Source of the DNA: a virus
Virus record (IMG/VR): IMGVR_UViG_3300035670_000923
Coordinates: 1-30,900 of that record
DNA length: 30,900 bases
Direction: 5' to 3' (one strand)
The notes beneath the pieces were generated by a model. The model was given only the letters and a program-made list of their open reading frames with translations. It had not been told where the DNA came from and searched no databases. A program made the position numbers and the translations under genes. Shown here one piece after another: positions 13,143 through 30,868 of this stretch. Each line of letters opens with the position of its first letter. Position 1 is the stretch's first letter.

Positions 13143-13268
13143 TAATGCAGGATGATTCGCCATCCTTAATCGTGCGAAGTTTAATGCAGGGCGATTCGCC
13201 ACCCTTAATGAGCGAGGTTTAATGCAGGGTGATTCACTACCCTTATAATTAATGTGAGGTTTAATGCA
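13143..13268 (+). ncRNA. toxI: ToxI-like antitoxin RNA repeats of a type III toxin-antitoxin system
   Basis: Three tandem units, each starting TAATGCAGG, lie at 13143-13181 (39 nt), 13182-13219 (38 nt) and 13220-13261 (42 nt), followed by a partial TAATGCA. Each unit holds a short hairpin (GGATG/CATCC, GGG/CCC, GGGT/ACCC around a GATTC core), and the bases change while pairing is kept. In type III systems such as ToxIN, the toxin cuts this transcript into single-repeat pseudoknots that then inhibit it. The repeat count, length, promoter upstream, terminator downstream and adjoining toxin gene all fit. The core CAGGGTGATTCACTACCC closely resembles, from memory, the Pectobacterium ToxI unit. 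Confidence 0.88.
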
Positions 13269-13318: not shown

Positions 13319-13831
13319 ATGGGTAAATTAAAATTTTATGATATTCATAAAGAATACATAAGCTATCTTAAAAAGTTTGATCACCAGATTCCAGAAATTG
13401 AATACGATAATAATAGTAAATTTTTTTGTGGAATCGTTTTAGAAATCAATGGTTTCAATTATTACGCCCCCATAACTTCTTTTAATAAACAACAACGTAC
13501 AAATTTTGTTATTTTGGATAAGGGTAGGCCTATTAGTTCAATTCGTTTTAGTTTCATGGTACCTGCATCCGAACCTTTTATCACCCTAACAGACTTCTCT
13601 AGCAAGCCACAGAAATATAAAGACCTTGTAAATGCAGAAGTCAAATACTGTAATCAAAACATTACTGCAATATATAAAAAAGCCAAGGAAGTTTATAAAA
13701 TAGGGATTAATAAAAAGCACCCTCTAAATCACACATGTTGTGATTTCAAATTATTAGAAGAAAAAAGTTTAATATATAATAACACCATGAAAGAGATCGC
13801 TGTATCTAAAGAAGATGAGTCTATTGATTAA
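13319..13831 (+). CDS. toxN: Type III toxin, ToxN/AbiQ-family endoribonuclease (170 aa)
   Basis: The protein begins with FYDIHKEYISYLKKFDHQIP and continues with FFCGIVLEINGFNYYAPITS, RFSFMVPASEPFITL and FKLLEEKSLIYNN. These correspond in order to the conserved stretches of ToxN and AbiQ (Y..YLK.FD, GIVLEI.G..Y.APLTS, FM.P, F.LLEEK). The Thr-Ser after API matches the catalytic region of that family. Length (about 170) is normal. GGGGGA is six bases before the ATG. It is the only convincing plus-strand gene here and is controlled by the upstream repeat RNA and terminator. Such systems act as abortive-infection defences against other phages. It converges with the terminase gene, leaving only 58 bases between stops. 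Confidence 0.9.
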   Translation: MGKLKFYDIHKEYISYLKKFDHQIPEIEYDNNSKFFCGIVLEINGFNYYAPITSFNKQQRTNFVILDKGRPISSIRFSFMVPASEPFITLTDFSSKPQKYKDLVNAEVKYCNQNITAIYKKAKEVYKIGINKKHPLNHTCCDFKLLEEKSLIYNNTMKEIAVSKEDESID

Positions 13832-13889: not shown

Positions 13890-16487
13890 CTAACCAAATA
13901 TAATTAAATCTCTTTCATCATAAACCGAGTCATCTCCTGATGGATTAAACTGTGCTCTAGCCAGGGCCATAATCAGGGCCACTATACCGTCGATTTTTTC
14001 TGAGGATTTTTCCTTATCCACCTTGATGTTTCCAGCTGGGTCTGTCCTGACCACAATATTATCCGCCATCCATCTTAAAACTGGATGACCACCGTGGGCA
14101 ATTTGACCACTTAGGGTTAGTCTCATTAAGTCCTTTGTCGGTGGAGACATATCCTTAAATCCCTGACCAAAAGGCACTACTGTAAATCCCATACCTTCTA
14201 GGTTTTGACTCATCTGGGTTGCTCCCCATCTGTCATAGACGATTTCCCTGATATTATATTTTTCCCCTAGCCTTTCAATAAACTTTTCAATAAATCCATA
14301 ATGGACCACATTACCCTCTGTGAGATTGAGTAGTCCCTGCCTATGCCAAATATCATAAGGCACTGCATCCTTTTTCACCCTTTGATGTATGGTCTCTTCT
14401 GGTAGCCAAAAGAATGGAAGTATCTGATATTTATCCTCTTCGTCCTCTGGTGGAAACACTAAAACAAAGGCTGTAATATCTGTAGTAGAGGATAAATCCA
14501 GTCCTCCATAACAGACTCTCCCCTTTAGTTCTTCAGGATCTACTGGATAATTGCATAGGTCCCATTTATCCATTGGCATCCACTTGATTTCCTGTTTAAG
14601 CCACATATTTAAACGGAGCTGTTTAAATAGGGCTAAATCTGCCGGGTCATCTTTTACTTGGTTATAATGTTCTCTTACTCTTTCTATTTGAATGGTATGG
14701 CCAAGACTAGGATTGGCTTTATACCAGTTGTTTTCATCTGAAATATCTGCATCGTCTTCCAGTCCATAAATAATGGATAGGAAAGTAGGGTCCACCCTTT
14801 TACCATCTAGAATATCCTTTGCCTTTTGGTGCATCTCCCAGCCATAGCCTGAGAGTTTATTTCCAGCAGTTGTGAGATATAAAAAGAGAGGCTGAGTTCT
14901 AGCATCTCCTGAACCGGTAGTTAGCATCTTTGCAAGGTCCGGATTAGGATAGGTCCAAATCTCATCCAGAATAACACAAGAAGCATTGATTCCGGATTTT
15001 GATTTAACATCAGAGCTTAATACTTGATAAAAGCTACCCGTCTTTGGATAGGTGATTCTCTTAGTTGACCTTACAAGATTGGTCACCTTTGATAGGGTCC
15101 TATTCCCTTCCACAAAGTTCATACTGGTGTTAAATATAATACTTGCCTGTTGTCTATCACAGGCAGCTACATACACTTCAGCATTTGGCTCTCCGTCGGC
15201 ACATAACATATAAAGGGCAATGGCTGCGCCGAGTTCACTATTATGAGTTGGCACCATAGATTTTCCAGCTAAATATAATCGTGATTTACTGCTTACCTCA
15301 ATACATTTCACTGGAACAGACTGTACTTTTTCAATGCTTACTATTGTTCTAAAGGAGTTTTTAGTTGCCTTCTCAGGTGTTTCTTTAAGCCTTTGATTCT
15401 TTCTTTGCAAAGAAAAAACAGGATTGCTCCTGTATGCAAAAAAATGTATTCGATATTTTGGCCCGTAATCTTTCCCTTTTAACCTTGCCCTCCCTTCAGT
15501 TATTGAACACTTAAATCCTAGACTTCTAATAAGTTCTGCCACATCTTCAGCTAATCTTTTACTTACTGTTGTGTATTCACATTCTCCATATTTGGATATA
15601 CATCCATCGGAATCCATAAGACCTTTTAATAATTCTAGTCTTTGTTCATAAGAGGATCTTAAATATTCAGTGGGAATATGTTTATTGCATAATAAGTCCA
15701 TCTTTCTCATTTTAGCTTGCCAAGAAATATCCCTAGCTGCTTGGGTTCTATCGCCATTTCCAAATGCCAAATGAATGCTACCCGTATTATTTGATTTCCA
15801 CTCCCTAACTTCTACACCAGATGATACAACCTTGTCTGCTATTTCTAAATCATTGATATTACAGGTAAAGCTTGCATTATAAGCATTTCCATCGGCTAGC
15901 CAAACCCCTAATACATAAGGTGGAAATTCTAGTTCCCTTTCTTCTAGATCTAATGCCCCAATATTAGGAATTCGATAATTATAACAGCCATTTTTATTTT
16001 TAATCTTGCCTAACATGTCTTCTGTTTTTAGTATTTTTGTTTCATAATATGGCGCTTTATTAGGTTTATATTCATTTACCTGCCACAAATGCTCTCCATC
16101 GGCAATAATACTTTCCCCATCAGAGAATTTTACTTCATAACAAGGCCTGTCATACATAATCTCTGTACATCCCAAGACACTGCAGGTTTTTCCATTCTCA
16201 TCAAATACTTCATCCCCTACTTTTAAATTTTTCATTGTTGTCCATCCACTTGGAGTTGGTATAGGGGTATCAATAGATAATGCTTTTCCATTTTTCTTGC
16301 CTATCTCTACATAAGCGGTACGGTACTGCCTTGTTCCATCTTCTCTTAAAGTTCCAAATAATCTTCTTACCAGATCCTTCTCCCAAGGTAATAATTTAAA
16401 AGGCTGACCAGCCCATTTACCTTTGGTCAGCTTAAGTTGTTCTATAAAATTAATGGCATGATTCGCATGGGCTTCACTAAATGGCAT
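13890..16487 (-). CDS. Terminase large subunit with in-frame intein (865 aa precursor; 517 aa after splicing)
   Basis: The exteins form an HK97-type large terminase (Terminase_1 family). The N-extein carries FIEQLKLTKGKWAGQPFKLL and the P-loop start EIGKKNGK. The intein occupies residues 69-416, and the C-extein resumes SELGAAIALY, so splicing rebuilds the Walker A motif GKKNGKS. Walker B is CVILDEIW (about residue 500), with LYLTTAGN as the coupling motif. The RNase H-like nuclease shows GLDLSSTTDITAF (about 657), EIVYDRWGATQ and KIDGIVALIMALA (about 831), with conserved acidic residues. It translocates and cuts DNA at the portal. Without splicing the P-loop is split, so activity should depend on the intein. 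GGAGG precedes the ATG. Confidence 0.95.
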   Translation of the reverse strand: MPFSEAHANHAINFIEQLKLTKGKWAGQPFKLLPWEKDLVRRLFGTLREDGTRQYRTAYVEIGKKNGKALSIDTPIPTPSGWTTMKNLKVGDEVFDENGKTCSVLGCTEIMYDRPCYEVKFSDGESIIADGEHLWQVNEYKPNKAPYYETKILKTEDMLGKIKNKNGCYNYRIPNIGALDLEERELEFPPYVLGVWLADGNAYNASFTCNINDLEIADKVVSSGVEVREWKSNNTGSIHLAFGNGDRTQAARDISWQAKMRKMDLLCNKHIPTEYLRSSYEQRLELLKGLMDSDGCISKYGECEYTTVSKRLAEDVAELIRSLGFKCSITEGRARLKGKDYGPKYRIHFFAYRSNPVFSLQRKNQRLKETPEKATKNSFRTIVSIEKVQSVPVKCIEVSSKSRLYLAGKSMVPTHNSELGAAIALYMLCADGEPNAEVYVAACDRQQASIIFNTSMNFVEGNRTLSKVTNLVRSTKRITYPKTGSFYQVLSSDVKSKSGINASCVILDEIWTYPNPDLAKMLTTGSGDARTQPLFLYLTTAGNKLSGYGWEMHQKAKDILDGKRVDPTFLSIIYGLEDDADISDENNWYKANPSLGHTIQIERVREHYNQVKDDPADLALFKQLRLNMWLKQEIKWMPMDKWDLCNYPVDPEELKGRVCYGGLDLSSTTDITAFVLVFPPEDEEDKYQILPFFWLPEETIHQRVKKDAVPYDIWHRQGLLNLTEGNVVHYGFIEKFIERLGEKYNIREIVYDRWGATQMSQNLEGMGFTVVPFGQGFKDMSPPTKDLMRLTLSGQIAHGGHPVLRWMADNIVVRTDPAGNIKVDKEKSSEKIDGIVALIMALARAQFNPSGDDSVYDERDLIIFG
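15240..16283 (-). mobile_element. Class 3-type intein with LAGLIDADG homing endonuclease (348 aa)
   Basis: The intein begins ALSIDTPIPTPSGW and ends MVPTHN, and the next residue is Ser. Position 1 is Ala, so the usual Cys/Ser nucleophile is missing. The class 3 triad is present: Trp at intein position 67 in block B (ADGEHLW), Cys at 327 in block F (VPVKCIEV), and Thr at 346 in block G (PTHN), with His-Asn at the end. In class 3 inteins the block F Cys makes the first attack. Two LAGLIDADG motifs, VLGVWLADG (precursor residues 192-200) and LLKGLMDSDG (286-295), keep their acidic residues, so the endonuclease may be active and able to invade empty terminase genes. Confidence 0.92.
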
Positions 16488-21006: not shown

Positions 21007-22545
21007 TTATACATCTACTGAAATTGAATCCTCTAAGGAAAGGGCCACTGCATAGGCCACATTTACCGTTACTGCATTTCCAGCCTGTTTATAAAGTTGA
21101 GCATCTGAGTTTACTTCCCTTGCTTTTTCAAACATTTCATCGGGAAATCCCTGGAGTCTAAAGCATTCTTTAGGAGTAAGCCTTCTAATTCGATAGTTTT
21201 TATCTAGGGTAGCCATTTGACACCCAGTATCTATAGTGTTTGAGATACCCTTTCCAACTCTGCCTCGTCTTGTTTTTGAATTTGGAACTGAAATATTTAT
21301 ACTGTCACCAATTTCAGCTTCAGCGTAACCCTTTTTAGTCGCTTCTTTTATTGCAACTTTTGGAGATAAAAGCAAATTATCCTTTTGAACAGAGGTTAGT
21401 GTATTGGACACGCCATCTTCTCTAGGCTTTAGCTCTGTCATATTATGCCTACTTTCTTTTATTTCTCCTGACTCATATTTCTTTCGTATTTCTTTTCCAT
21501 ACTCATTTCTTGTTGCTTTTAAAATAGCTACTCCGTGCCTGTCTTGAGACGTCAAGGTGAACATAGGCTCTTCAGATTCTTTCATTCTTCTGCCATTTTG
21601 CCTTTTATCTTCCCGATCAGGTGTTATAACAGCCCTTGCTTCTAAAACCGCACTATTTGTAGCTGTTCTATTGACAATCCCTGCTGTGTATCTGGAAGTA
21701 ATACACCTTGAGTTTTCTGTTATCTTACTTTTGCTACTGGACTGATCTATAAAATAAAGACCTGTTTTTGCACCCGTTCCACCACCATTAGCCGTCAAAG
21801 TTGGAGAAATCCCATCGGTGTCATAAACATTGCCACTTGCACCTTTACCACTTGGATTAATATTTCCAACTTTATAAAGGCCAGTCTTTGCACCAACTCC
21901 TCCAGCGTTACCCACAAGAGTAGCTGAAATTCCATCTGTATCATAAACCCTATAGCCCTGCATTCCGCCTATAATTTGCTTAAGAGCTGCTGTGTTTTCT
22001 CCTCCGATAGGTAATATTTCTCGTCTACCTCTGCTTCTAAGATTTGCGATAATGAACACACGCTCTCTATTTTGGGGAACTCCGAAGTCTTTAGAGTTAA
22101 GCACTTGCCACATTGCATCATACCCTGCTTCATCCAGCTCAGAGAGAACTGTGGTAAAATCAAATCCACCATTAATTGATAGCAGGTTCTTAACGTTCTC
22201 AATGAGTAAGAATGTGGGTTTATCTTCTTCTTTTTTGCCTTTGACGAGGTCAATAATGCTGAAATAGATTCCACTTCTTTCTCCCCTAAGTCCCTTCTGT
22301 TTTCCAGCAACGGAGATATCCTGGCATGGGAATCCAAAACACCAGATGTCTGCATAGGGGATTTCTTCTGATTTAAGTTTTGTAACGTCACCTGCGAACC
22401 ACTCTCCTTTCGTATCAAACATCGCCCTGTAGCTTCTTACAGCGAATTTATCATTTTCACAAAAACCTATACACTGATATCCTGCAAGTTCAAGTCCCAG
22501 CCTAAACCCGCCTATCCCAGAACATAAATCAAGGAAGGTCATCAT
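21007..22545 (-). CDS. DNA cytosine-5 methyltransferase (512 aa)
   Basis: All main C5-methyltransferase motifs occur in order: I (FLDLCSGIGGFRLGLELAG), IV with catalytic Cys (GFPCQDISVAGKQ), VI (LLIENVKNLL), VIII (QNRERVFIIA) and X (YKQAGNAVTVNVAYAVAL). The region between VIII and IX, where the target recognition domain lies, is unusually built: a near-exact repeat VYDTDGIS(A/P)TL is followed by GAKTGLY twice (about residues 200-265), and degenerate S-x-T-L units continue to about residue 450. It probably protects phage DNA from host restriction. No partner endonuclease was found, so it is an orphan enzyme. It overlaps the upstream methyltransferase gene by 17 bases. Confidence 0.95.
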   Translation of the reverse strand: MMTFLDLCSGIGGFRLGLELAGYQCIGFCENDKFAVRSYRAMFDTKGEWFAGDVTKLKSEEIPYADIWCFGFPCQDISVAGKQKGLRGERSGIYFSIIDLVKGKKEEDKPTFLLIENVKNLLSINGGFDFTTVLSELDEAGYDAMWQVLNSKDFGVPQNRERVFIIANLRSRGRREILPIGGENTAALKQIIGGMQGYRVYDTDGISATLVGNAGGVGAKTGLYKVGNINPSGKGASGNVYDTDGISPTLTANGGGTGAKTGLYFIDQSSSKSKITENSRCITSRYTAGIVNRTATNSAVLEARAVITPDREDKRQNGRRMKESEEPMFTLTSQDRHGVAILKATRNEYGKEIRKKYESGEIKESRHNMTELKPREDGVSNTLTSVQKDNLLLSPKVAIKEATKKGYAEAEIGDSINISVPNSKTRRGRVGKGISNTIDTGCQMATLDKNYRIRRLTPKECFRLQGFPDEMFEKAREVNSDAQLYKQAGNAVTVNVAYAVALSLEDSISVDV

Positions 22546-23797
22546 AGCAGTTGCCTCCCTTTATAAAATCAGCATATGAAATTTTCTCACCATCACGAAG
22601 GACATATACATCCTTATCTGTCCCCACTTGCTCAATGAACCTTTTAACGATAACAGTGGCATATTTAGGATCAAGCTCTAGGGTGTTACAAATTCTATCC
22701 ACCTGCTCACAGGCAATTAAGGTTGAACCGCTGCCCCCAAAAGTATCAAGGACAATGCCATTAACCTGAGATGAATTCTTTATAGGGTAGCAAAGTAATG
22801 GAATCGGCTTCATGGTTGGATGTTCTCCGTTTTTCTTTGGCTTGTCATAGTTCCACACGGTTGTCTCCGATCTACCGGTAAACCATTTATGTTTGGCCCC
22901 TCTTAGCCAGCCAAAGAGAATCGGTTCATGAATCCAGTTATATGGGCTCCGGCCAAGAACCAGTGAGTTCTTCTTCCAAATGCATACACCACTAAGATGG
23001 AAGCCGGCTTCTATAAAAGCTTTTCTAAAGTTAAGCCCTTCTGTATCTGCATGAAATACATAGATAGAACCTCCGGGTGCTGTATGCTCTGCCATATTTT
23101 TAAATGCTGATAGTAAAAAGGCATAAAAAGTATCATTGTCCTGTTTATCGTTTTGAATCTTAAGACCGCTGGCACTTTCAAAGTCTACATTATATGGCGG
23201 ATCTGTTACCACAAGGTTTGCTTTTTTCCCATCCATTAATGTAGCAACATCTTCAGCCTTTGTAGCATCTCCACACATAAGGCGGTGTCTTCCAAGAAGC
23301 CAAATGTCTCCTGGCTTTACAAAGGCAGCTTCTTCTAAGGCCTTATTCACATCATAGTCATCATCTTTTGCGTCCTTATCATGAACCTGACTAAAGAGGT
23401 CTTCAATTTCTGCAGCATCGAATCCAGTTAAGGTAACATCAAAGTCCTGTGCTTCTAAATCTTTTATAAGGTCTGCTAAAGCCTCAAACTCCCAGTCGCC
23501 GGTTACTTTATTTAGTGCCACATTAAGAGCTTTTTCTCTTTCAGAGGATAGCTTGACCACTACACATTCCACTTCATCATGGCCTTCCTCTAAAAGAATC
23601 TTATAACGTTGGTGACCACCTACAATGTTTCCCGTTTCCTCATTCCAGATAATCGGCTCCACATAACCAAACTCCGTCATGGACCGCTTTAATTTTTCAT
23701 AGGCTGGGTCCCCTGGCTTTAAATCTTTTCTTGGATTGTATTTAGCCGGGTTAATTTTAGATACCGCCACTTTTCTTATATTCATGTCTTGATTCAC
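22529..23797 (-). CDS. ParB-like domain / DNA adenine (N6 or N4) methyltransferase fusion (422 aa)
   Basis: The N-terminal about 120 residues form a ParB/sulfiredoxin-like domain (SKINPAKYNPRKDLK, NIVGGHQRYKILLEEGHDEV). The methyltransferase part has the catalytic motif VVTDPPYNVDFES first and the AdoMet motif DTFGGSGSTLIACEQ later. This circular order marks a beta-class amino-methyltransferase. The region between them should recognise the target. I start it at a GTG (MNQDMNIRKVAV) with GGAGGG seven bases upstream. Fusions of this kind are common in Firmicute phages and are thought to modify phage DNA against restriction. An intrinsic terminator lies just upstream. Confidence 0.93.
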   Translation of the reverse strand: MNQDMNIRKVAVSKINPAKYNPRKDLKPGDPAYEKLKRSMTEFGYVEPIIWNEETGNIVGGHQRYKILLEEGHDEVECVVVKLSSEREKALNVALNKVTGDWEFEALADLIKDLEAQDFDVTLTGFDAAEIEDLFSQVHDKDAKDDDYDVNKALEEAAFVKPGDIWLLGRHRLMCGDATKAEDVATLMDGKKANLVVTDPPYNVDFESASGLKIQNDKQDNDTFYAFLLSAFKNMAEHTAPGGSIYVFHADTEGLNFRKAFIEAGFHLSGVCIWKKNSLVLGRSPYNWIHEPILFGWLRGAKHKWFTGRSETTVWNYDKPKKNGEHPTMKPIPLLCYPIKNSSQVNGIVLDTFGGSGSTLIACEQVDRICNTLELDPKYATVIVKRFIEQVGTDKDVYVLRDGEKISYADFIKGGNCYDDLP

Positions 23798-23822
23798 TTT
23801 TATCCCTCCGTTTCTTTGCATT

Positions 23823-25837: not shown

Positions 25838-27238
25838 CTAACCTCCATTTTTTAAATTAGTAATCCTAGCCTTAACTGCTTCAATTAGTGCCTTTTGCCC
25901 TGTGTCTTTATTATCAAGAGCCATCATCACTTTGTGATCAATGGTGTCCCTTGCTAGCAAGTGATTTATAACCACCGTCTGCTTTTGACCTTGCCGCCAT
26001 AGTCTGGCATTGGCCTGCTGGTAAAGTTCTAAGCTCCAGGTCACGCTGTACCAAATAATCGTGGATCCACCTTCTTGAAGATTGAGCCCATGGCCTGCTG
26101 ATGCAGGATGGCACAGGGCAATTTTCATCTCTCCCCTATTCCACCTTGCTATATCCTCCGAGGTGTTAATCTCTCCCGCATCAAATCTATTTTTTATTCT
26201 TTCTTTTTCATGTTTAAATCCGTAGTAGATTAAAACCGGTTTACCATTGGCAGCTTCGATTAAATCCTCCAAAGCATCCAGCTTCCTGTCATGGATCCTG
26301 TGTACATCTCCGTACTCGTCATAGACCGTTCCTCCTGACATTTGAAGAAGCTTGTTTGACAGCACCGCTGCATTGACTGCATCCACTTCACTATCCTCTA
26401 GGGGAAGAAGCAAGTCCCTCTCTAGCTTTTTATAAAGCTTCATTTCCTTTTCAGATAGCTCTACTTCCACTTTGTTAAAAATAATTTCCGGCATCTTCAA
26501 ATACTCTAAAGCCTTCATGCTAATGCAAATGTCTGATATTTTGTCATAGATTTTATCTTCTGCATCATCGTTTAGCACATAATCTGCTGGTATTCCACCG
26601 TTCACATATTTCTGTGGGTGGAAGTATCGGCTACGGTATCCACTAAAGGTTCTTCCCAGTCTCTCCCCTCCATCTAAGAGGTAGATTTGACTCCAAATAT
26701 CTAAAAGTCCATTGGGTGCAGGCGTTCCTGTAAGGCCTACAATCCTTTTAATTTTATGTCTTACTTTTTTTAGTGCTCTGAACCTTTTAGCCGATGGAGA
26801 TTTGAAACTTGAAAGTTCATCGATGATGACCATATCAAAGGGCCACTCATTTTTATAAAACTCCACCAGCCAAGGAACATTCTCTCTGTTGATGGTATAG
26901 ATATCAGCCTTTTTATATAGGGCCATGGTTCTTTCCTTTGCACTTCCAAGAACCCTTGAAACCCTAAGTTCCTTTGTATGCTTCCACTTTAAAACTTCAT
27001 CCAGCCATGTGGTGTTGGCTACTCTTAGTGGTGCAATCACCAGTACCTTTGATACTTCAAACCGGTCATGTAAAAGATCCACTAGAGCGGTTAGGGTTAT
27101 TACACTTTTGCCAAGCCCCATGTCTAGGAATAAACCTGCAGAGTTGTTCTCCAAAATAAACTCTGTGCAGTGGGTTTGATATTCATGAGGGCGGTACGGT
27201 AGTCTTGATTTAGGTAGTACTACTTCCGGCAATCCCAT
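25838..27238 (-). CDS. SNF2-family DEAD/DEAH-box helicase (466 aa)
   Basis: Helicase motifs appear in order: I (LFLDMGLGKSVITLTAL), Ia (VLVIAPLRVANTTW), II (MVIIDELSSFKSPSAKRF; DEL in place of DEAH), III (GLTGTPAPNGLLDIWSQ), V (LNLQEGGSTIIWYSVTWSLE) and VI (QQANARLWRQGQ). This is the short SNF2-type helicase common in Firmicute phages beside a VRR-NUC nuclease. ATP-driven DNA translocation in replication or recombination is likely. It overlaps the end of the nuclease gene by 29 bases, so the two are coupled and may act together. Confidence 0.93.
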   Translation of the reverse strand: MGLPEVVLPKSRLPYRPHEYQTHCTEFILENNSAGLFLDMGLGKSVITLTALVDLLHDRFEVSKVLVIAPLRVANTTWLDEVLKWKHTKELRVSRVLGSAKERTMALYKKADIYTINRENVPWLVEFYKNEWPFDMVIIDELSSFKSPSAKRFRALKKVRHKIKRIVGLTGTPAPNGLLDIWSQIYLLDGGERLGRTFSGYRSRYFHPQKYVNGGIPADYVLNDDAEDKIYDKISDICISMKALEYLKMPEIIFNKVEVELSEKEMKLYKKLERDLLLPLEDSEVDAVNAAVLSNKLLQMSGGTVYDEYGDVHRIHDRKLDALEDLIEAANGKPVLIYYGFKHEKERIKNRFDAGEINTSEDIARWNRGEMKIALCHPASAGHGLNLQEGGSTIIWYSVTWSLELYQQANARLWRQGQKQTVVINHLLARDTIDHKVMMALDNKDTGQKALIEAVKARITNLKNGG

Positions 27239-27500
27239 CTACCACACCTCCTATATCCGCTGGGTTATCTAGGCAATAAACTAAAAACCCTAGCCCTTCC
27301 AGCTCCCCTTTTCTCTTTATCTGATTAGGTCTCATTTTCTTTCCCAGTGCTTTCACCTCAACAAATCCCATCTTGCCACCAGGCATTAGCACCAGTCGGT
27401 CAGGCACCCCATTTAATCCTGGGGAGATAAACTTATAGGCTCTACCGCCTCTTCTTTTCACTTCTTTTACAAGCATTAGCTCTAGTTCTTTTTCTGTCAC
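27210..27500 (-). CDS. VRR-NUC domain nuclease (96 aa)
   Basis: The whole protein is a single VRR-NUC domain: TEKELELMLVKEVKRRGGRA, FISPGLNGVPDRLVLMPGGK, MGFVEVKALGKKMRPNQIKR. The catalytic PD-(D/E)xK-like residues D (PDRL), E and K (FVEVKA) are intact. Stand-alone VRR-NUC proteins next to SNF2 helicases are a regular pair in phages and probably cut branched DNA. I choose the GTG with GAGGTG six bases upstream; the GTG at 27509 falls within that ribosome-binding site. Confidence 0.92.
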   Translation of the reverse strand: MTEKELELMLVKEVKRRGGRAYKFISPGLNGVPDRLVLMPGGKMGFVEVKALGKKMRPNQIKRKGELEGLGFLVYCLDNPADIGGVVDGIAGSSTT

Positions 27501-27566
27501 CTCTATCACCTCAATTTCTGTCGTTTTTAACTTAGGTGCCTATTAAGCACTGAAGAAATATCTATT

Positions 27567-27632
27567 CAAAATAAGTTTTAGTTCCTCTCAAAATAAGTTT
27601 TAGTTCCTCTCAAAATAAGTTTTAGTTCCTCT
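27567..27632. repeat. Three perfect 22-bp tandem repeats
   Basis: Identical units at 27567-27588, 27589-27610 and 27611-27632 begin CAAAATAAGT and end GTTCCTCT. The third is followed by a run of T residues. Identity at every position suggests recent duplication or strong constraint, as for iterons bound by an initiator. Confidence 0.9.
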
Positions 27633-27656
27633 AACATTTTTTTTGCTTTTCATTCT

Positions 27657-27924
27657 TGTAGTCTATAGTTGTAGTCTGAAGGGTTTAAAACCTATACGCG
27701 CGTATGTAGGCTATATTACTATTATTACTAGTAAAATAATTAATCAATTAAGTTATCTCCTACATAGACTACTAACGTACTGAACCCCTTGTTTTAACTG
27801 GTTTTAGCTTTGTAGTCCAAGGTGTAGACTGAGAATTTTTAGACTACATCAGACTACACATTTTCACCTCTTACCAGTCTACATATCATAAGTTAGACTA
27901 CACATTTCTAGTCCTCAGACTACA
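27657..27924. repeat. Dispersed octamer repeat AGACTACA / TGTAGTCT (about ten copies)
   Basis: Exact copies lie at 27657-27664, 27670-27677, 27841-27848, 27851-27858, 27895-27902 and 27917-27924. Close variants are at 27766-27773, 27811-27818, 27823-27830 and 27876-27883. Both orientations occur: inward TGTAGTCT on the left, AGACTACA on the right, flanking an AT-rich core. Confidence 0.8.
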
Positions 27925-27959
27925 AATTCAAATTTATGGGTTCACTAACCCTTTTGGTT

Positions 27960-30494
27960 TTAATCGCTATCATCGTCAGTATCCTCATATCCCTCTCTAA
28001 CAAAGGCTCTTTGAGCGTTGTATATTGGGAATCTCATATTCCCTCTCTTATTGCCCTCATAGCGTTTCCAACCACCAAGTCGCATCAAGATCCCTTCAAT
28101 TTCATAGGAATCAGATCTTCGAATGGTGTTTCTCTCTTTTCCAAAGCACTCACACCAAATCTCAAGACAGCATACTCTATCTCTTCGATTGGCCCCTTCT
28201 GGGATCTCCTCACCAAACTCACTCTGCCCTGCAAGGTAGCTACGTCTTTCATAAATGTCCATCTTGGCCCAGTTATCAGGTAGTGGCTTTTCAAGATACT
28301 GCTCAACCAAACCTTCACGGTCATCTGCTTCCATAGCATCACGCTGTTCTTCATAGGCCATCTTTTCTTCTTCCCCTATTAAGATAAGAGGTTCTCCTGC
28401 CCTATACATTTCAAGGGCTTCTGCCCAAATCTGATCTATATCTGTCATCTCCCAGACCTTCTTTTTACTTTGCTTCACCCTTACTGGCCAGAACCTTCTA
28501 TTACCGGTGACATCTCTTAAGAAACCACTGGTGCTATTCGTGCTTCCCACGATAATACACTGCCTCGGATGGCTTTCCACATTGACACCATAGCTGTGCC
28601 TAAACTTGTCATCTGTTCTAGTAATAAAAGATTTCACCGTTTCTACATCTATCTTTCTAAGCCCTGCCAGCTCTCCCAGCTCTAGGATCCAGTAGCCTTG
28701 AAGCTTTTCTGCTCCTGACTTGTCCCGCATATCAGATACTGTTAAACTATCTGAAAACCACTTACCTCCAAGCTTTGCAAAGAAGGTGGATTTTCCAATT
28801 CCCTGTGGTCCATTTAGGACCAAAATATAATCAAACTTTGTCCCCGGCTCATAGATCCTAGCCACTGCTGCTACTAAGGTTTTTCTCATAATCGCTCTTG
28901 TATAGGGGTTATCTTCTGCACCGAGATAGTCGATAAGAAGCCTATCCACCCTCTCGGTTCCGTCCCAAACCGGCAGTGCATCGAGATAATCTCTAATAGG
29001 ATGAAACAGTCTCTCTGATGCTGCCGTGGTAAGAGCATCTTTTACCTTTACAGGTGACCAAATGCCATAATGCCTATCTAGATACATCTTGAGATTTGCA
29101 AAGTCTGCATCATTCCACCCATCCTTTACCTGTTCCCAAGGTAGCTCTCCATTAACATCTAGAAGATGGTTCATCTGGTTATAGGCGATGGCCTGAAGCC
29201 TTGAGTCGTGTCTCATGATAGTTAGAATATTGGTCGGTGTATCTTTTACCGTTCCGTTTTTATTAAGTTCAAGCTCCAGCTGCCAAGTTAGATCATCTTC
29301 TTCAGTGGAGTCTTCGCTTTGTGAGGTTTCTTCGTTACCTTTTTCTTTACTGCTTGGTGTAACTTTAGTGCTGGATTTATTCTTAGAAGCTGATTTATCT
29401 GCATCAAACTCATCCTCTTCTACCTTTTCAAACTCTCTATTTATTTCCTCTGCCCGTTCTTTGGCCAGTTGCCTTTTCACTTTTTCATCCTCTAGACAAA
29501 ACTCAAGCATGGCTTTGACAGATGGTAGTGTTGATTTAGATGATGGCAGCTGTTTCTTTTCATCGACCCCCTCATCCAAATCCCCATAAAGGTGGATCCT
29601 TACTAAATCAAAGGCATTACATAACTGGCCGCAAGCAGGATCTGTTGCGTGATGGGAGTAGGCATATTTCCCGTTATAGATGACAACTCCCGCTGTGGAA
29701 TCGGCTGGGGTATAGTCATAACGCTCAGGCATCACACTAGGTTCATAGATATCTGTGAGGAAGGTTTCAATGGCTTCTTCTATGGTGTAGCTCCTGCAAA
29801 AGGCTCCAATAAGACCTTCTTTTCTAATAGGATCTGCCTGCTTTTTCATCAGCTTCTTTAAAAGTGTGGTTTGTCTTGATGACACCGGCCATGATGATGA
29901 GTCCTGCCAGTTTTCATAAAACTTTAAGATACCATCAGGGTTTAAAAAGTCTCCTTTGATTTCCCTATAGAAATACTCCCCATCAGATGAAGTACTGGGC
30001 CAGTACATCAGTCTATTAGGCTCATAGGTGGTATCATCAAATAACTCAATGCCGATTTCTTTGGCAATCATTCTACTAACTGCTTGATATTCATCTGCTG
30101 TAACAACTCTAGACAGTGGAATGATCAGTCTTAGCCTTGGCTTTTCCGGTGTATGTTTATGGGTGGAGTAAATGATTGCTGCATACCCATAAAGCAGTTC
30201 CATATTTTCAGCTATAGATTCAGCATCATCTGCATAATCCATATCAAGGGTTAGCATAGAGCGGTTTATAACGCTGTGCTTTGTTCTTCTTCCATCTTTA
30301 AGCTGTCCGGCTACAAAACCACCCACATCTTTTACATTGTCTTGCTGGTACTTTTTCATCTTCAGGTACTCTTCCTGAGTTTCACTGGTGACGGTGGTTC
30401 GGGAGAGCCTCTCTGTAAACTCCTCCCAGGACACCGTCTGTTCTTTCCAAAATTTATCTTTACGGCTATTGCCTGTTGAGATTATAAATTTCAT
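27960..30494 (-). CDS. Phage replication protein: AEP-type primase fused to VapE-family (VirE) helicase (844 aa)
   Basis: The N-terminal about 220 residues resemble an archaeo-eukaryotic primase domain: MLTLDMDYADDAE holds the DxD metal site, then IIYSTHKHTPEKPRLRLIIP. A middle part with YSHHATDPACGQLCNAFDLV is typical of such primases. A Lys/Glu/Ser-rich linker (about 375-410) follows. The C-terminal part is a VapE-type P-loop ATPase: LNGPQGIGKSTFFAKLGG (Walker A), YWILELGELAG (Walker B) and IIVGSTNSTSGFLRDVTGNR (sensor). It should prime and unwind phage DNA at the origin. GGAGG precedes the ATG. The repeat-rich region just downstream supports this role. Confidence 0.92.
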   Translation of the reverse strand: MKFIISTGNSRKDKFWKEQTVSWEEFTERLSRTTVTSETQEEYLKMKKYQQDNVKDVGGFVAGQLKDGRRTKHSVINRSMLTLDMDYADDAESIAENMELLYGYAAIIYSTHKHTPEKPRLRLIIPLSRVVTADEYQAVSRMIAKEIGIELFDDTTYEPNRLMYWPSTSSDGEYFYREIKGDFLNPDGILKFYENWQDSSSWPVSSRQTTLLKKLMKKQADPIRKEGLIGAFCRSYTIEEAIETFLTDIYEPSVMPERYDYTPADSTAGVVIYNGKYAYSHHATDPACGQLCNAFDLVRIHLYGDLDEGVDEKKQLPSSKSTLPSVKAMLEFCLEDEKVKRQLAKERAEEINREFEKVEEDEFDADKSASKNKSSTKVTPSSKEKGNEETSQSEDSTEEDDLTWQLELELNKNGTVKDTPTNILTIMRHDSRLQAIAYNQMNHLLDVNGELPWEQVKDGWNDADFANLKMYLDRHYGIWSPVKVKDALTTAASERLFHPIRDYLDALPVWDGTERVDRLLIDYLGAEDNPYTRAIMRKTLVAAVARIYEPGTKFDYILVLNGPQGIGKSTFFAKLGGKWFSDSLTVSDMRDKSGAEKLQGYWILELGELAGLRKIDVETVKSFITRTDDKFRHSYGVNVESHPRQCIIVGSTNSTSGFLRDVTGNRRFWPVRVKQSKKKVWEMTDIDQIWAEALEMYRAGEPLILIGEEEKMAYEEQRDAMEADDREGLVEQYLEKPLPDNWAKMDIYERRSYLAGQSEFGEEIPEGANRRDRVCCLEIWCECFGKERNTIRRSDSYEIEGILMRLGGWKRYEGNKRGNMRFPIYNAQRAFVREGYEDTDDDSD

Positions 30495-30786: not shown

Positions 30787-30868
30787 ATTATCCTCAAGTT
30801 TTCATTATCCTCAACTTTTTCATAAATCTTTAATTTACACTTTTTCCTCCTAGAAAGTTGAGGATAAT
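30787..30868. repeat. Three copies of a 15-bp motif ATTATCCTCAA(C/G)TTT
   Basis: Direct copies at 30787-30801 and 30804-30818, and a perfect inverted copy at 30854-30868, surround an AT-rich stretch. Position upstream of the early operon suggests operator or promoter-control sites. The inverted pair could also form a 15-bp stem in RNA. Confidence 0.7.

Follow-up and report, generated by a model that had tools for sequence, protein, structure and literature searches.

The octamers AGACTACA/TGTAGTCT that cluster at 27657–27924 of the window, the whole 30.9 kb virus record analysed here, are with a probability of about 0.86 the iterons of a phage replication origin, which would be bound by the C-terminal winged helix of the adjacent VapE protein, with this reading head and the array together making up an exchangeable cassette. 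This reading draws on the array itself and on its conserved layout, on the way in which the octamer word and the VapE C-terminus co-vary and are exchanged, and on the homology of VapE to the SaPI initiator. The original prediction was of an origin or a large regulatory assembly. An origin is favoured because the array adjoins, on the 3' side, a helicase homologous to PriRep1, as in the PICIs, because it flanks an AT-rich core, and because the word tracks the VapE C-terminus; recurrence of the arrangement in relatives adds to this comparative support.

Within these 268 nt there are 11 copies of the octamer at up to one mismatch, 6 of them exact and 5 with one mismatch; six exact copies had been predicted, and the four near copies predicted were one too few. 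Dinucleotide shuffling of this segment, repeated 500 times, gave at most 1 exact copy of AGACTACA and 5 at up to one mismatch. When any 8-mer was accepted, as a correction for the post hoc choice of the word, the maximum was 4 exact copies, and 9 when one mismatch was allowed, each reached in 1 of the 500 shuffles. A similar octamer density elsewhere, named beforehand as the observation that would speak against the prediction, was not found within the 30.9 kb record, where any other 268 nt stretch carries at most 3 copies at up to one mismatch. Of the 8 exact octamers in the record, only those at 516 and 11813 are outside the array.

Read along the plus strand, three minus-strand sites (27657–27664 and 27670–27677, both exact, and 27705–27712, with one mismatch, conserved in the relatives L005, L016 and L017) are followed by the AT core and then by eight sites. 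The first of the eight, on the plus strand (27766–27773, one mismatch), is conserved in the relatives that share the word; two minus-strand sites follow (27811–27818 and 27823–27830, one mismatch each), and then five on the plus strand, which are exact (27841–27848, 27851–27858, 27895–27902, 27917–27924) but for 27876–27883, with one mismatch. The opposed orientations that had been proposed are therefore real, but a simple left/right mirror is ruled out by the mixed orientations in the right arm. The AT-rich core that was predicted between the groups is at 27713–27765, a proposed melting site of 53 nt and 83% AT, and only 16 of the 30,848 53-mers in the record are equally or more AT-rich. On the other side of the core from vapE is a palindrome, ATACGCGCGTAT, at 27694–27705. 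The array occupies a 450 nt gap immediately 3' of vapE, which ends at 27960, with a VRR-NUC nuclease gene on the other side (27210–27509, minus strand; phrog_93, 3e-24; Pfam VRR_NUC, 8e-4, below its cut-off) and a SNF2-type helicase gene next.

Other repeats are present in the record. Three perfect 22 bp tandem repeats (27566–27632) lie just past the array, and the original prediction held these to be distinct from the octamers, which is borne out, as they are outside the conserved part and missing in L005, L016 and L017. Because they are missing from these relatives they would be a recent local expansion, found in the window only, and they are ruled out as part of the origin. Near the right end of the record is a near-perfect 17 bp tandem pair, ATTATCCTCAAGTTTTC (30787–30819). 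Nearly all of the genes are on the minus strand; on the plus strand a ToxN-like gene (13319–13831; Pfam ToxN, E 2e-36) follows about three 38 bp tandem repeats (13143–13268), and together these resemble a toxin-antitoxin pair of type III and its repeat RNA, inserted in the orientation opposite to that of the other genes.

The 844 aa product of vapE (27960–30494, minus strand) is a primase-helicase and the proposed replication initiator. It has the Pfam VapE-like domain (PF05272, E 5.4e-81), a phrog_256 match that spans residues 2–834, and a phmmer match to the SaPI protein PriRep1 (PDB 7pds, E 3.6e-64). An AlphaFold model of residues 394–844 has a pLDDT of 86, and a separate model of the C-terminal 111 residues one of 89. 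In Foldseek the best match to this 451 aa C-terminal model is PriRep1 with dsDNA (E 3e-34, TM 0.70–0.74), which is also the best structure match for the C-terminal domain alone (E 1e-3). The predicted winged helix (approximately residues 776–834; domain and tail together are encoded at 27963–28169, minus strand) would consist of helices at 776–783 and 793–806 and strands at 809–811, 819–822 and 826–833, and is the proposed iteron-reading domain.

All 16 of the VapE-relative loci compared have a similar layout in the gap, with three different words: type A, TGTAGTCT (the window, L005, L016, L017); type B, rGTGGTmkA, around GTGGT (L002, L003, L004, L006, L007, L012, L015); and type C, TGTAATTA (L008–L011, L013, L014). 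In a common register these are tGTAGTCT (A), rGTGGTmkA (B) and tGTAATTA (C). The positions of the A and B sites correspond, with an offset of approximately 33 nt, and are largely kept despite the different words. In the type B arrays of L002, L003, L006, L007 and L015 there is one GGTAGTCT site each, intermediate between the A and B words. The palindrome beyond the core is common to the three types as TACGCGCGTA, with a variant in one type C locus, L013; a search for the pattern around it matched 13 viral contigs, all of them already known vapE contigs.

The word follows the last 50 or so residues of VapE, and not the remainder of the phage. In a set of 4 A, 5 B and 10 C loci, after removal of duplicates, A and B have no residue in common at positions 794, 813, 820, 821, 826, 827, 834–836, 838 and 841–844. 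These fixed differences all fall within 794–844, the winged helix and tail, differences at 369–386 having been set aside as a linker that is filled only in the window and L002. On the predicted structure they map to the start of the second helix, the wing and the tail. Co-variation, joint exchange and the winged-helix fold, from comparative and predicted-structure data, point to the C-terminus of the initiator as the putative iteron-binding domain.

Joint exchange of reading head and array is apparent in L002, a type B locus and the nearest relative of the window, with 93–98% identity in the flanking replication genes (94–98% by BLAST). The two differ in one block of about 600 nt, made up of the last 50 or so codons of vapE and the array. 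Their alignment breaks across 27520–27993, and the differences become closely spaced some 155 nt ahead of the vapE stop; identity is 93.6% in the vapE body compared, 68% in the C-terminal 150 nt, 46% in the gap, and 95.6% downstream. Two more A/B pairs are alike in this: L017 and L003 are 82% identical in the body, 72% in the C-terminus, 52% in the gap and 84% downstream, and for L005 and L006 the values are 91, 75, 50 and 93%. The window and L017, both of type A, are 74% identical in the body, 93% in the C-terminus and 90% in the gap. When nine A/B loci are compared in 60 nt steps around the vapE stop, identities within and between types are about equal except from approximately −210 to +430, and only between −150 and +270 does each of the nine have a nearest neighbour of its own type. 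From the alignment break, the dense differences and this neighbour typing the exchanged cassette is placed at 27520–28115 on the minus strand.

In a tree of VapE residues 1–760 (17 rows, the partial L015 and L016 left out) the window pairs with L002 (100/100), L003 with L017 (100/97), and L005 with L006/L007, this third A/B sister pair having moderate support (80/80). The starred branches of this tree require three changes, for A as for B, and a single clade of A is rejected (p-AU 1.4e-4). In a tree of the C-terminal coding sequence (147 nt, 19 rows) there are 2 type changes, the minimum, with a weakly supported A/B split (B 63/100). The tree of the downstream gene, in which L015 is on a very long branch and is probably misaligned, has 9 type changes, no better than shuffled labels. 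L043 duplicates L017 and was left out of the trees. That L002 and L005 are isolates, judged from their identifiers, and that L012/L018 are from Youngiibacter fragilis, argues against assembly chimeras as the sole cause. The joint transfer could partly reflect linkage, reading head and array being encoded side by side.

Of 47 gaps downstream of vapE, several of them near-duplicates, 34 contain a 6-mer that is enriched (p ≤ 0.05) in the two orientations, compared with 2 of 47 control stretches from upstream coding sequence and 1 of 47 from downstream. The enriched words vary (GGAACA, GGATAC, GTAAAC, GCAACA, AACAAG and others), and one, AAAAAG in L022, resembles simple sequence. The other 13 gaps are above p ≤ 0.05, partly because the 320 nt segment tested misses parts of some arrays and partly because in some the words are few or degenerate (L021, L073). 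Between the Staphylococcus phages S1 and 2638A/QT1 the flanks are mostly 65–85% identical or thereabouts and the gap 37–55%; 2638A and QT1 differ from S1 in both the VapE C-terminus and the word. Among the S. aureus S1-like phages in the matches listed (60 of 104 records) no exchange was seen, most matching S1 end to end at 96–100%, nor was there exchange in a second family, around phage L085, where 9 of the 10 records match over their whole length.

Gap DNA searched in phages gave no match to the gap itself, only 3 records with vapE coding sequence, and in plasmids no match. A scan of viral contigs for TGTAGTCT pairs yielded at least 119 loci that were scored (L090–L208). As candidates for the array in unrelated elements, the five densest among the matches listed were rejected, being one-strand tandem repeats, some of them in ORFs, and not opposed. 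Stand-alone reading domains that might act as decoys were found in none of 25 phrog_22020 matches (391 genomes), all of which are in frames of 783–877 aa. A natural exception is Staphylococcus phage fPfSau02 (L223, 2001–2584), where vapE has a large internal deletion and a 131 aa frame consists of the C-terminal reading domain, followed by the downstream gap. This frame is a putative natural stand-alone origin-binding domain.

In the origin reading, the octamers would be bound by the C-terminal winged helix of VapE, encoded immediately upstream. VapE subunits in opposed groups would melt the AT core between them and be loaded there as the helicase, and replication would then be started by the fused primase together with further enzymes. 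Binding, melting, loading and origin activity are all inferred steps. Reading head and array would be a single swappable cassette, like lock plus key, and related phages would carry different matched pairs of word and head because the two are exchanged as one. More tentatively, and with rather less than even odds, exchangeable origin types, with few wing residues setting the word, may be favoured in VapE phages where competition or attack directed against a given origin rewards phages whose own goes unrecognised. A resident prophage, a satellite, origin decoys or an origin-directed nuclease could be the selecting agent. That interference with origins selects in this way is hypothetical, though there is precedent in other systems.

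The gap is upstream of the VRR-NUC gene, phages often autoregulate, and iterons may double as operators, so that the words might be operators at which VapE or another regulator controls transcription of the VRR-NUC and SNF2 helicase genes. This is unlikely, as 27400–28100 lacks promoter-like sites on the minus strand, which carries the genes, and the 2 promoter-like hits there equal the shuffle expectation of 2.0; the word also tracks the C-terminus of a helicase and not a regulator gene, and the AT core and opposed sites fit origins. A DNA-binding role in partition or packaging, or as a methyltransferase target, would have in its favour that the window encodes a DNA methyltransferase fused to a ParB-N domain (22529–23821) and a further methyltransferase. 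However, the array adjoins and co-varies with the end of vapE, and the methyltransferase genes, at 21007–23821, are well outside the block in which type and sequence agree, which makes such a role very improbable.

Least probable of all is that the vapE transcript contains a structured RNA or an attenuator, its stems made from the inverted words. The array does fold somewhat better than expected (z −2.43, with 2 of 100 shuffles equally stable), which is accounted for by the stems that inverted words give in any case, but many of the words are direct repeats, there is no Rfam match in the window, and an RNA would leave unexplained why the word tracks the DNA-binding domain of VapE.

The window is not itself a PICI, as it has its own large terminase gene (13890–16487), and is therefore a phage. 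This terminase carries a LAGLIDADG/homing-endonuclease segment near residues 271–340, before the ATPase and nuclease matches, which suggests an intein. The O protein of phage lambda is not known to be a helicase. It too is the initiator of a phage and has an iteron origin of its own, which blocks infection when present in ectopic copies (PMC4488673), but the iterons are inside the O gene, unlike those of the window, and the same is so for Stx phages (PMC7466680). In SCCmec, Cch2 is a helicase of the self-loading type with a C-terminal domain that binds a repeat region directly downstream, as is proposed for VapE, but there are only three 5 nt AAGTG repeats, the protein is of the D5/Primase_Cterm family, and the element is not a phage (PMC7581432).

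In the PLE satellites of Vibrio cholerae the DNA-binding domain of RepA and the origin co-vary; exchange has taken place at least twice, and the selection behind it has been attributed, as a proposal, to an origin-directed nuclease (PMC8263062). The PLE initiator is of the RepA_N type, with an N-terminal reading domain and three iterons of approximately 30 bp (PMC8263062), whereas that of the window is a helicase-primase.

The closest likeness is to the Rep-ori of SaPIs and other PICIs (SaPIbov1, EcCICFT073, EfCIV583), which have a VapE-homologous initiator (PriRep1, 7pds) and, in the place that the array takes in the window, an origin directly 3' of it (PMC6092414), read by the C-terminal domain of the initiator (PMC7581432), as is proposed for the window. 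PICI origins are described as directly 3' of rep; those shown for E. coli all have an AT-rich region with a set of iterons on either side, and pri-rep-ori works as a replicon (PMC6092414). The window differs from these in being a phage with terminase, VRR-NUC and SNF2 genes and not a satellite, in the conserved palindrome, and in the matched exchange of C-terminus and array between near-identical phages. A literature search, in which subscription papers were poorly covered and which is no proof of novelty, found no paper on VapE and iterons and none that, by title or abstract, describes such an arrangement in VapE phages. The layout of origins that has been called unique to PICIs would extend to full-size phages of many hosts, and the A/B pairs would be natural domain-swap experiments in which specificity is narrowed to a few winged-helix residues and a few bases of the word. 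This raises the testable question of how some ten sites in an array can change in step with the protein that reads them, and under what selection; matched heads and arrays could also serve as orthogonal origins. The best reading of the array is as an initiator-linked iteron origin of the PICI type in a full-size phage, with head and array repeatedly exchanged. Such an origin is of a known kind; what would be new is that full-size phages have it and have repeatedly exchanged matched cassettes.
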